From: a virus
Virus record (IMG/VR): IMGVR_UViG_3300006845_000030
Span: 1-36,882 of that record
Direction: 5' to 3' (one strand)
Length of the DNA stretch: 36,882 nucleotides
Positions 942 to 34,851 of this stretch are shown here, in pieces. Positions within the stretch are counted from its first letter, which is position 1, and the number at the start of each line of letters is the position of its first letter. The notes below the pieces were generated by a model. The model ran no database searches. It had not been told where the DNA came from and worked only from the letters and a program-made list of their open reading frames with translations. A program made the translations under genes and the position numbers.

Positions 942-1026
942 GGAAGATTGGCCGAGTGGTAAGGCAGCGGCTTGCTAAGCCGTAGTCCCGGGCAACCGGG
1001 CGGGCGTTCGAATCGCTCATCTTCCG
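942..1026 (+). tRNA. tRNA-Ser (GCT)
   Basis: An 85-nt class II tRNA. The acceptor GGAAGAT pairs fully with ATCTTCC (1019-1025), and the discriminator base is G at 1026. The anticodon stem GCGGC/GCCGT encloses the loop TTGCTAA, so the anticodon is GCT at 974-976 (reads AGC and AGU). A long variable arm (CCCGGGCAACCGGG) and the T-loop TTCGAAT are present. No CCA is encoded. It lies 23 nt after the first gene and abuts the next coding sequence. Confidence 0.93.
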
Positions 1027-1283: not shown

Positions 1284-1356
1284 GCGGACGTAACTCAATG
1301 GGTAGAGTTCCTGCCTTCCAAGCAGGCGGTTGCCGGTTCGAACCCGGTCGTCCGTT
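1284..1356 (+). tRNA. tRNA-Gly (TCC)
   Basis: A 73-nt tRNA. The acceptor GCGGACG pairs with CGTCCGT (one G-U). The D arm is ACTC/GAGT, and the anticodon stem CCTGC/GCAGG encloses CTTCCAA, giving anticodon TCC (reads GGA). The T arm is GCCGG-TTCGAAC-CCGGT. It lies 10 nt after the preceding stop codon. A long hairpin (1395-1442) separates it from tRNA-Asp. Confidence 0.93.
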
Positions 1357-1394
1357 CGTTGCTCAGGCCGGTGGAGTGGTTTTGTATGATAGAC

Positions 1395-1442
1395 GTGTGC
1401 ACGTACGTGTGGGCCGGCAGCTCTGAGCATGTACGTGCACAC
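1395..1442 (+). repeat. Perfect 12-bp hairpin between tRNA-Gly and tRNA-Asp
   Basis: GTGTGCACGTAC (1395-1406) and its exact complement GTACGTGCACAC (1431-1442) enclose a 24-nt loop. The hairpin ends 3 nt before the 5' end of tRNA-Asp. A TATGAT box (1385-1390) lies just upstream but has no convincing -35. No U-run follows, so a processing or spacing role for the tRNA transcript is as likely as termination. Confidence 0.75.
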
Positions 1443-1445
1443 CCT

Positions 1446-1518
1446 GGCTACGTAGCCCAATAGGTAGGGCACCACCCCGTCAAGGTGGAGGGTGCGGGTT
1501 CAAGTCCCGTCGTAGTCG
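1446..1518 (+). tRNA. tRNA-Asp (GTC)
   Basis: A 73-nt tRNA. The acceptor GGCTACG pairs with CGTAGTC (one G-U), and the discriminator is G. The D arm is GCCC/GGGC. The anticodon stem CCACC/GGTGG encloses CCGTCAA, so the anticodon is GTC (reads GAC and GAU). The T arm is GCGGG-TTCAAGT-CCCGT. Hairpins begin 3 nt before and 2 nt after it. Confidence 0.93.
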
Positions 1519-1520
1519 CT

Positions 1521-1569
1521 GCACAGGTGCCGAAACCTCGCTGGGTTCACGCACACACGGCACCTGTGC
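1521..1569 (+). repeat. Perfect 12-bp hairpin between tRNA-Asp and tRNA-Ala
   Basis: GCACAGGTGCCG (1521-1532) pairs exactly with CGGCACCTGTGC (1558-1569) around a 25-nt loop. The loop contains an inner AACC/GGTT match. The geometry is almost the same as the hairpin before tRNA-Asp, but the stem sequence is different. It starts 2 nt after tRNA-Asp and ends 4 nt before the Ala-like tRNA. Confidence 0.75.
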
Positions 1570-1573
1570 TTAT

Positions 1574-1643
1574 GGGGATGGCGCTGGGTACGCGAGTGAT
1601 CCTTGCAAGATCGCTGCGATGGGTTCGATTCCCTTCTTCTCCA
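1574..1643 (+). tRNA. Degenerate tRNA-Ala-like gene (TGC)
   Basis: A 70-nt tRNA-like fold. The anticodon stem TGATC/GATCG encloses CTTGCAA (anticodon TGC, Ala). The T-loop TTCGATT is canonical. The acceptor GGGGATG/CTTCTCC has one T-T mismatch and one G-U. The T stem ATGGG/CCCTT has another T-T mismatch. The D arm appears to be only three pairs (GCG/CGC). It is either a decayed tRNA, a tRNA needing editing, or a tRNA-like element. Confidence 0.6.
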
Positions 1644-1644
1644 C

Positions 1645-1690
1645 GAACCGCCATCAGTCGTTGTCGGGGGACGGCGACTGGTGGCGGTTC
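1645..1690 (+). terminator. 16-bp hairpin after the tRNA cluster
   Basis: GAACCGCCATCAGTCG (1645-1660) pairs with CGACTGGTGGCGGTTC (1675-1690), with a single G-U, around a 14-nt loop. It begins one base after the Ala-like tRNA. The sequence that follows (TTCATCTT) is only weakly T-rich, so it could be a terminator for the tRNA transcript or a 3' processing and stability element like the two hairpins upstream. Confidence 0.6.
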
Positions 1691-1711: not shown

Positions 1712-1945
1712 ATGGCGGAGAGCAGGTTGAACCTGGCAAGAGCTAGGTGCCCCTCGTGCGGATCGATGGGGCTTGTGGCCGAGGAGTGGCCGTTAACTGC
1801 TGGCGAGATCAGCGAGACGGGCCGGAAGAAGTTGCCGGTGCTCATTTGCGAGGCACGGTGTGGCTGGCATGTGTGGGGGTGGTACCAGGGCCGGCGGATG
1901 GTGTTCGGGAACTTCTGGACGATGACCCCGGAGGCTGGTGCATGA
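1712..1945 (+). CDS. Small zinc-ribbon-like protein
   Basis: A 77-aa protein (MAESRLNLARARCPSC...). The ATG follows AGGAGGG at 1699-1705; longer versions of this frame would run through the hairpin and are rejected. A CPSC pair near residue 13 and CEARC near residue 51 form a likely four-cysteine zinc ribbon of the CxxC...CxxxC type. The C-terminus is tryptophan-rich (GWHVWGWYQG). Its stop overlaps the next start as ATGA, indicating translational coupling. The function is unknown; the zinc site suggests nucleic-acid or protein binding. Confidence 0.75.
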   Translation: MAESRLNLARARCPSCGSMGLVAEEWPLTAGEISETGRKKLPVLICEARCGWHVWGWYQGRRMVFGNFWTMTPEAGA

Positions 1946-2157: not shown

Positions 2158-3747
2158 ATGAAGACAACCAGAGGAGAGAGCAGAGGAGACAAGTTGTCTG
2201 CAAACGCAACATTTTCCGTTGATGATCTGGTGTCACTCAGCCAGCGGACGGCGAAGAAGATCAGCGCGGACCAGAAGATCCGGGCCGCGATCCTGGAGCA
2301 GCTCGATGCACTTGGGCGGCTTCAGGTCAGCGATGAGGCCCTGATCTTCGAAGGAGAGAAGTTTGTCCTCCCCAAGCACATGGAGGGCAACATCGGCGCG
2401 GCGGCCAAGTACCTGCTTGACTACGAGAAGGCGCAGCAGAAGGCGTTCAACTTCTCCAAGGTCTTCCAGTACCGGCCGTTCGACGGCGCAGCTGCTTTCC
2501 AGCGGACCATGATGAAGGTCTTTGGGTCGATGGGTATCGGCAAGTCGACCTTCGGGTTCTTCGGCGAGGAGTACAAGCCGGAGATCCGAACCATCTCCAT
2601 CAGTCCCACCGAGACGATGCAGGTGCCCTGGGGTGACGTGATGTTCCCTCCGCTGGAGGCGACGTTTACGCTCGGCTTCACCAGGGACCCTGAGCTGGGG
2701 ATCCTTTTCACCCTGTACGTGGAGGCGCCGAAGAAGCACGAGGCGCGTGTTCACGCCTTCTTCTCGATCGTGGATCAGGAGCTGAAGGACAACTCCATCT
2801 ACAAGGGCAAGGCGATCAACGGAGCGCAGGAGCCCGGATTCGAGGACGTGTTCCAGGTCGACCCGCGCAAGGTCATCTACTCGGAAGAGGTGCTGACCCA
2901 GCTCGACGCCAACCTGTGGACCTTGATCCGTCACGCGGACACCATGCGCGACCTGGGCATCTCCCTCAAGCGAGCGGTGCTTGTGGAAGGTCCGTACGGC
3001 ACCGGCAAGTCGCTGTGCGGCATCCTGACCGCGCAGGAGGCGGTACGTAACGGCTGGACGTTCATCCTGGCCCGGCCAGGCAAGGACGACTTGTTCGACG
3101 TACTGAAGACGGCGCGGCTCTACGCCCCAGCAGTGGTGTGGTACGAGGACATCGACGTGGTGGCCAAGGGTGGCTCCAGCTCACACCTGAGCCAGCTCCT
3201 GGATGTCCTGGACGGCATCAGCGCCAAGGGCAACGAGATCATCGCCGGGTTCACCACGAACCACGTCGAGAAGATCCAGAAGGGTGTACTGCGCCCGGGT
3301 CGGATCGACGCCATCGTCCCGATCGGACAGATGGATGCGGTGGGCTTCCGTAAGCTCGTTCAGGTTGCGGTGCCAACCAACCTGCTCGGCGAGGTGGACT
3401 ACGACAAGATCGCTGAGGCGTTCGATGGGCTCGTACCCGCATTCGCCCTGGAGGCCATCGAGCGGGCCATGCGGTACACGATCGCCCGCAACGGTGGTAC
3501 CCCTGGTCTGATCGAGACTCAGGACCTGGTGGACGCTGCGGCGGGTCTACGGCCCCAGCTGGAGATCATGGCCGAGGCCAAGGAGGGCTCGGACCAGCAC
3601 ACCCTGGACAGGGCGGTTACCCGCATTGTGGAGGACGTCAACGCGCGTACCTCATTGCAGGCGGTTGGCTCCCCGTTCCGGGTACAGCAGCCCAAGGTCG
3701 GCGTGAACACCAACGGTGCGAACACTGACGACTACGACGAAGACTGA
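2158..3747 (+). CDS. AAA+ ATPase
   Basis: A 529-aa protein. The AAA+ module in the second half has Walker A GPYGTGKS (278-285), Walker B VVWYEDID (about 326-333), a sensor-like FTTNHVEKI and RPGRID (about 377-382), the layout of classical Cdc48/FtsH/BCS1-type AAA proteins. The N-terminal 270 residues are of unknown type and also contain GSMGIGKS (123-130), which fits the P-loop pattern. It probably remodels or unfolds a phage or host protein complex. Two starts are possible: ATG 2158 (leaderless from the promoter above) or TTG 2194, which follows GAGGAG. The tail is acidic. A strong terminator follows. Confidence 0.88.
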   Translation: MKTTRGESRGDKLSANATFSVDDLVSLSQRTAKKISADQKIRAAILEQLDALGRLQVSDEALIFEGEKFVLPKHMEGNIGAAAKYLLDYEKAQQKAFNFSKVFQYRPFDGAAAFQRTMMKVFGSMGIGKSTFGFFGEEYKPEIRTISISPTETMQVPWGDVMFPPLEATFTLGFTRDPELGILFTLYVEAPKKHEARVHAFFSIVDQELKDNSIYKGKAINGAQEPGFEDVFQVDPRKVIYSEEVLTQLDANLWTLIRHADTMRDLGISLKRAVLVEGPYGTGKSLCGILTAQEAVRNGWTFILARPGKDDLFDVLKTARLYAPAVVWYEDIDVVAKGGSSSHLSQLLDVLDGISAKGNEIIAGFTTNHVEKIQKGVLRPGRIDAIVPIGQMDAVGFRKLVQVAVPTNLLGEVDYDKIAEAFDGLVPAFALEAIERAMRYTIARNGGTPGLIETQDLVDAAAGLRPQLEIMAEAKEGSDQHTLDRAVTRIVEDVNARTSLQAVGSPFRVQQPKVGVNTNGANTDDYDED

Positions 3748-3762
3748 CTTTTCCGGTAATAC

Positions 3763-3811
3763 CGAAAGGCCCCACGCTCCGCTCCTGGCTTGGTGCGCGT
3801 GGGGCCTTTCG
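3763..3811. terminator. Bidirectional-type terminator between convergent units
   Basis: CGAAAGGCCCCACGC (3763-3777) pairs perfectly over 15 bp with GCGTGGGGCCTTTCG (3797-3811) around a 19-nt loop. The stem has AAA and TTT at its base, as in terminators that work on both strands. It sits between the AAA ATPase (plus) and the end of the late operon (minus), touching the stop codon of the last minus gene. Confidence 0.85.
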
Positions 3812-3958
3812 CTATGCGTAGGCGCCGAGCAATGAGATCGTGACCGCTACAGCCCAGATGCACAGCCCTAGGGCCAGGAGGCTGCGGCGGAGGAACGCTT
3901 CGATGCCGAGGCACGTTGACGCAACGATCATTAGAACGATCACGAAAATGGCTAGCAT
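3812..3958 (-). CDS. Small two-span membrane protein
   Basis: A 48-aa protein, MLAIFVIVLMIVAS..., with two hydrophobic spans at about residues 2-18 and 27-46 separated by a short loop with paired arginines (FLRRSL). It is too short for most gene finders. The ATG lies five bases after the upstream stop, with AGGAG immediately before it and GGGGG further up. It is the last gene of the late operon, next to the endolysin region, so a holin, antiholin or other lysis-accessory role is plausible but unproven. Confidence 0.6.
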   Translation of the reverse strand: MLAIFVIVLMIVASTCLGIEAFLRRSLLALGLCIWAVAVTISLLGAYA

Positions 3959-31755: not shown

Positions 31756-31794
31756 AAGCAAACGCCCCGGATGGCAAGTCCGGGGCGGTTGCTT
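31756..31794 (+). terminator. Intrinsic terminator after the SSB-like gene
   Basis: CGCCCCGGA (31763-31771) and TCCGGGGCG (31779-31787) form a perfect 9-bp stem around TGGCAAG. An outer AAGCAA/TTGCTT (31756-31761 and 31789-31794) extends it, with one A-G mismatch between. It begins directly after the stop codon. Confidence 0.85.
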
Positions 31795-31887
31795 CAGAGA
31801 AGGCAGAGTTGCAGAAGTGCAAGGTACCACGAGCCACCGGCTGGGCGTACGATCAGAAAACCTTTTCGTTTAACCGGAGGCTCACAT

Positions 31888-31924
31888 GATGCAGGGACCT
31901 CTTTCTCAAGGAGGTCCCTGCATC
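31888..31924 (+). terminator. Perfect 14-bp hairpin upstream of the PrimPol gene
   Basis: GATGCAGGGACCTC (31888-31901) pairs exactly with GAGGTCCCTGCATC (31911-31924) across the nine-base loop TTTCTCAAG. No U-run follows. Loop and 3' arm spell AAGGAGGT, a complete Shine-Dalgarno match, here sequestered. It is either a second terminator in the gap 31756-32040 or an RNA switch. A short frame (31886-32044, 52 codons) starts in it and reaches the PrimPol start. Confidence 0.6.
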
Positions 31925-31994
31925 GGGATCAGCTTCAGCCTACTGATCCTCTGCTGTGCGTTTCCTGTTCCCCGTTGGTCACATAACCAGAAGA

Positions 31995-34608: not shown

Positions 34609-34823
34609 ACGACACTGGGATCGTCTTTTGTGGGGCCTACCTGAGATGAGATAAGGGACACGGCAACGCAGGCAATCATAGAACCAACTGCCAACTTCCA
34701 CATGTCGTTGTAGTTGACGCTAAACCAGTTCGCGCCATCAGCACCAATAGCGATGACATACACCTCAAGCGGCGTTTTAATCGCACGCTCGATGGTTTTT
34801 TTCCAGAAATCCCAACTCCACAT
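34605..34823 (-). CDS. r1t-like holin
   Basis: A 72-aa protein. The start MWSWDFWKKTIERAIKTPLE matches the N-terminus of r1t-family holins. Hydrophobic spans at about residues 20-35 and 43-60, with an acidic tail (GPTKDDPSVV), would make pores that release the endolysin. The ATG lies at the edge of a 14-bp hairpin (34808-34851) with no clear ribosome binding site. It ends on the convergent stop of the PrimPol gene (shared TTAA). The endolysin lies 29 kb away in the late operon. Confidence 0.8.
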   Translation of the reverse strand: MWSWDFWKKTIERAIKTPLEVYVIAIGADGANWFSVNYNDMWKLAVGSMIACVAVSLISSQVGPTKDDPSVV

Positions 34824-34851
34824 ACCCCGAAGGATAGGTGGAGTTGGGATT
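34808..34851 (-). promoter_or_regulatory. 14-bp hairpin enclosing the holin start codon
   Basis: On the minus strand AATCCCAACTCCAC (34851-34838) pairs exactly with GTGGAGTTGGGATT (34821-34808). The 16-nt loop ends with GGGGTAT; A and T of the start codon are in the loop and G begins the 3' arm. The arm also encodes residues 2-5. No U-run follows, so translational control of the holin is more likely than termination. Confidence 0.7.

Follow-up and report, generated by a model that had tools for sequence, protein, structure and literature searches.

Hairpins ending a few nucleotides ahead of phage tRNA genes may keep the RNase P entry site clear

What purpose could be served by long hairpins that alternate with tRNA genes in a phage genome? 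The question is raised by an IMG/VR virus record of 36,882 bases (the window, meaning the whole stretch of DNA analysed), in which a Gly-Asp-Ala tRNA cluster carries three hairpins, here called H1, H2 and H3 (Table 1). The excision of phage tRNAs, which are scattered among ORFs and spacers, from long transcripts is little studied, and if each tRNA has a hairpin ahead of it at a defined spacing, a direct prediction follows for processing by RNase P.

The presence of three strong hairpins within the cluster, first noticed from the sequence alone, was confirmed by stem search, by folding and by a ranking across the window. They are three of the seven strongest hairpins of the window, compared with about one of such strength in a shuffled window. 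Folding gave z-scores against shuffles of -4.3 for the whole cluster, -2.1 for the spacer with H1, -4.9 for H2 and -8.6 for H3. Read in the tRNA sense, all imperfect positions in the three stems are G.U. The stems of 12 bp with 24- and 25-nt loops described for H1 and H2 in the sequence-only reading hold, that of H1 being the perfect core of a longer stem, but the 16 bp described for H3 become 21 bp when three G.U pairs are counted. A covariance-model scan found no Rfam family at or above its gathering score in H1-H3.

That reading had also placed a hairpin after each tRNA. Only H3 is purely 3' in this sense, lying 1 nt downstream of the Ala-like tRNA; after it come a ribosome-binding site and an ORF of 77 aa with no match in Pfam or PHROG. 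The spacing of H1 and H2, in contrast, is set by the next tRNA. H1 is found 38 nt downstream of tRNA-Gly and 3 nt upstream of tRNA-Asp, and H2 occupies the 55-nt Asp-Ala spacer, 2 nt past tRNA-Asp and 4 nt ahead of the Ala-like tRNA. Both are thus directly upstream of a tRNA and end a few nucleotides before its position 1, and because of this 3-4 nt spacing, they belong to the tRNA downstream of each. H3, a borderline hit in a scan for terminator-like structures, is probably a different element, namely a hairpin of the 3'-end or processing type that closes the cluster.

Table 1. Location of the tRNA genes, hairpins and ORF of the cluster, with sites of the ACAGCAA element in other loci
Feature	Position	Strand	Details
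tRNA-Ser(GCU)	942..1026	+	ARAGORN; Rfam 59.6 bits
tRNA-Gly(UCC)	1284..1356	+	ARAGORN; Rfam 66.3 bits
H1, leader hairpin of tRNA-Asp	1395..1442	+	16 bp including 2 G.U, 16-nt loop
Gap CCT, H1 to tRNA-Asp	1443..1445	+	3 nt; U at -1
tRNA-Asp(GUC)	1446..1518	+	ARAGORN; Rfam 67.4 bits
H2, leader hairpin of Ala-like tRNA	1521..1569	+	12 bp perfect, 25-nt loop
Gap TTAT, H2 to Ala-like tRNA	1570..1573	+	4 nt; A(-2)U(-1), fits phage leader consensus
Ala(UGC)-like tRNA, weak	1574..1643	+	Rfam 22.3 bits, under 29-bit cut-off
H3, 3' of Ala-like tRNA	1645..1690	+	21 bp including 3 G.U, 4-nt GGGG loop
77-aa ORF	1712..1945	+	ribosome-binding site AGGAGG just after H3
ACAGCAA element, L014	14951, 15708, 19601
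ACAGCAA element, L015	451, 617, 943
ACAGCAA element, also in L055, L065, L068, L072, L087, L097, L098, L100, L101, L102, L160

In the stem test neither tRNA-Ser (upstream stem not significant) nor tRNA-Gly (p=0.90) had a leader hairpin, so such a hairpin is present for two of the four tRNAs of the window. One of the two, the Ala-like tRNA, was not called by ARAGORN and is possibly degenerate. Further strong hairpins of the window, distant from the tRNA genes, occur at or near ORF ends (3759-3815, 31756-31794, 31887-31925 and 34808-34851), and these are perhaps terminators.

A search of INPHARED found no near relative of the window. The sole IMG/VR contig with an identical portal had no match to the tRNA/hairpin cluster, and exact-match searches of IMG/VR returned none for an H3 arm or for the H1 arm joined to the start of tRNA-Asp. 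Relatives were located via the AAA-ATPase, among them G003, with 29 tRNAs, and G005, with 26 tRNAs; a search for closer homologues of these two found none. In both of these, many tRNAs are preceded by hairpins, with unrelated sequences, and histograms of strong-stem positions have their peak 3-5 nt ahead of the tRNA.

The main survey covered tRNA flanks, de-duplicated and having 30 nt or more of spacer upstream, and took random positions in the same sequences as control. Counted stems end 2-6 nt upstream of the tRNA, and the reported score penalises G.T and A.C alike; several earlier scores and thresholds, used in turn, left the direction of the result unchanged. Folding energies of the flanks with multiloops allowed were noisy and far less clear, and stem scoring was used instead. 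Leader stems preceded 37 of 55 tRNAs in the window, G003 and G005 together (control 16%, p=2e-14), 154 of 633 in random IMG/VR loci retrieved with a tRNA-Asp pattern (control 9.9%, p=3.5e-23) and 36 of 124 in named phages (control 14%, p=9e-5). The excess was not significant in G011 (7/31 against 17.6%). Bacterial loci showed none (41/284 against 13.7%, p=0.39); this set, in which Lachnospiraceae and Saccharibacteria are abundant, does not represent the phages' own hosts and was defined by a tRNA-Asp pattern slightly unlike the viral one. The 3' ends of strong stems peak 3-6 nt upstream of the tRNA. On the downstream side, at 2-6 nt from viral tRNAs, hairpins likewise occur in excess (150/633), part of which may be the same hairpins viewed from the other side.

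Selection appears to act on the RNA. In the pooled viral leader stems, G.U outnumbers A.C by 71 to 37, compared with 277 to 291 in the controls (p=8e-4). Leader stems occupy the same place in different phages, are unrelated in sequence between them, and covary within a genus. The suggestion that structure is kept rather than sequence therefore holds in other phages. For example, the Asn leader of Streptomyces phages has the stems GCGTAGG/CCTACGC, GCGTGAG/CTCACGC and GCGCAAG/CTTGCGC, and a constant 5-nt gap, ATCAT. All seven pairs are paired in 100% of cases, and three of three varying pairs are altered on both sides, although these are three distinct sequences only and the score was reached by 19 of 500 shuffles. 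Similar compensation was seen in the Leu(caa) leader of Wakanda and Muntaha, and in the Pro leader, for which the alignment containing the unrelated Phredrick row was excluded from the counts. Gilson and Moab are among the Streptomyces phages whose leader hairpins covary.

A recurrence so far above chance suggests that phages may use the hairpin to keep the start of the tRNA clear for the trimming enzyme. For the window, we propose, with a probability of about 0.5, that H1 and H2 are 5'-leader hairpins of tRNA-Asp and tRNA-Ala in one polycistronic phage transcript, and present the tRNA 5' end to RNase P. Co-transcription, presentation as the selected function, and a behavior of H1 and H2 like that of the class are what we infer here. 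The stem would sequester the distal leader, whether this is spacer, ORF or an upstream tRNA, and prevent the leader from pairing with the acceptor stem or the 3' end. Ahead of the mature 5' end, 3-4 nt (generally 2-7) would stay single-stranded, matching the range read by RNase P, from N-1 to about N-5 with U at -1 and A at -2. The tRNA would then be a good substrate regardless of the sequence upstream.

What is known of the E. coli enzyme bears on this proposal. Its leader contacts extend to about N-5, a leader of 2 nt lowers kcat/Km about 5-fold, the enzyme is slowed when leader and 3' end pair, and a distal stem-loop has been engineered to prevent inhibitory leader structure (PMC9433436). 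The proximal leaders of phage tRNAs have U(-1) in about 60% and A(-2) in about 55% of cases, and with 2-7 nt left free, an insulation of RNase P entry therefore fits. This consensus alone does not tie the hairpin to RNase P, because phage tRNAs without a hairpin share the identical one. Several observations count against presentation to RNase P: the leader stem-loop of E. coli valV, which inhibits the enzyme as cited in PMC9433436, the two hairpin-less tRNAs among the four of the window, the possible degeneracy of the Ala-like tRNA, and the lack of a significant excess in G011.

A somewhat unlikely alternative is that the hairpin serves the RNA on its other side. After the RNase P cut, the upstream RNA would end in a hairpin with a tail of 3-6 nt, which would block 3'-to-5' exonucleases and stabilise the upstream mRNA or pre-tRNA. 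The anchoring of the hairpin on its 3' side, the short tail resembling a terminator end, the RNA-level selection and the ORFs interleaved with phage tRNAs are all consistent with such a barrier. However, leader hairpins are no rarer in short spacers, which leave little room for a gene and usually have a tRNA just upstream (61/208), than in long ones (119/507), and H2 would hinder the 3' trimming of tRNA-Asp.

It is unlikely that the hairpins are RNase III sites, at which the polycistronic transcript is cut between tRNAs ahead of trimming by RNase P. In the window the lengths would suffice, as all three stems have the approximately 11 bp or more expected for this enzyme, with H1 (16 bp) and H3 (21 bp) well suited, and in Streptomyces the rpsO-pnp intergenic hairpin is cut in this way (PMC10126417). 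Yet the viral leader hairpins have a median of 9 Watson-Crick bp, and because only 29% reach at least 11 (71% do not), RNase III is improbable as the general reason; nor does the enzyme require a fixed spacing of 3-6 nt to the tRNA. We consider it highly unlikely that the stem-loops slow RNase P and thereby set the order of processing, for which valV, again as cited in PMC9433436, is the precedent, since the contact nucleotides are left free rather than paired, the gap peaking at 3-6 nt. Intrinsic termination of the genes upstream is most improbable. Although H3 is terminator-like, a T-rich tail is found in only 11 of the 181 leader hairpins from viruses, the tails of H1 and H2 (CCT and TTAT) contain no U tract, and a terminator 4 nt ahead of a tRNA would abolish the transcription of that tRNA. 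Finally, DNA-level palindromes acting as mobile or recombination units, to which the near-perfect inverted repeats had pointed, are scarcely credible, because the strand-specific G.U bias indicates RNA, neither the H3 arm nor the H1-Asp junction has an exact copy in IMG/VR, and different phages do not share their stems. From the functions suggested by the sequence-only reading, RNA processing and the insulation of tRNA folds thus remain the leading ideas, and recombination finds no support.

A sequence-conserved element, absent from H1-H3 and from the rest of the window, was also found at tRNAs in G003 and in several further viruses. It consists of a covarying 7-bp stem, two nucleotides of any kind, the motif ACAGCAA, 27-149 nt, the closing strand and a G. 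This G followed the closing strand in 28 of 28 selected cases and was not a selection criterion. The 24 distinct stems are paired in 168 of 168 cells, compared with 111 in shuffles, a count that stems partly from selection, because the cases were chosen for having a stem. Near phage tRNAs, the density of the motif is about three times that in other places, and the element sometimes encloses a whole tRNA. No Rfam family covers it, save that one copy overlaps weakly with YrlA, and compared with the open-access literature, it may be an undescribed RNA family.

Other structured RNAs and related genes were seen at these viral tRNAs. In a phage tRNA cluster (L015:625-741), an ACAGCAA stem encloses a YrlA (Y RNA-like) permuted tRNA of 37.7 bits, under the Rfam cut-off. 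The viral tRNA cluster of L068 contains, at 667-1085 and 3067-3353, a GOLLD RNA that stays below the cut-off, and also a permuted tmRNA. Genes for TROVE (Ro-like) proteins lie near or within the tRNA clusters of G005 (67405-67590) and Streptomyces phage Moab (71446-72309). A link between Ro/TROVE and the ACAGCAA element was considered and rejected, as TROVE is encoded in only these two of 17 records, and not in carriers of the element.

Taken more broadly, we tentatively suggest that a leader hairpin insulating RNase P entry is a phage-wide, context-independent tRNA architecture with no excess in the sampled bacterial loci, and that its second, sequence-conserved form is perhaps an undescribed RNA family. 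Such hairpins help to identify tRNA genes in phage sequences, and could account for the continued function of these genes after relocation within a phage genome.

Among known systems, the leader stem-loops of bacterial pre-tRNAs come closest. Those of E. coli valV and of engineered substrates, as far as PMC9433436 relates them, are likewise leader hairpins that affect the access of RNase P. Unlike them, the phage hairpins are repeated at many tRNA genes, with a set spacing by which the nucleotides contacted by RNase P stay free; as a class they are not in excess at the sampled bacterial tRNA loci. The stem-loops upstream of CR3 and CR4 in cluster M mycobacteriophages are also gene-boundary hairpins in tRNA-rich actinobacteriophages, but they precede conserved intergenic repeats, which lie in the right portion of the genome (PMC7953290). 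The RNase III hairpin of Streptomyces rpsO-pnp is likewise a processing hairpin between co-transcribed genes (PMC10126417); in comparison, the phage leader hairpins are mostly not long enough, and it is the tRNA 5' end that fixes their spacing.
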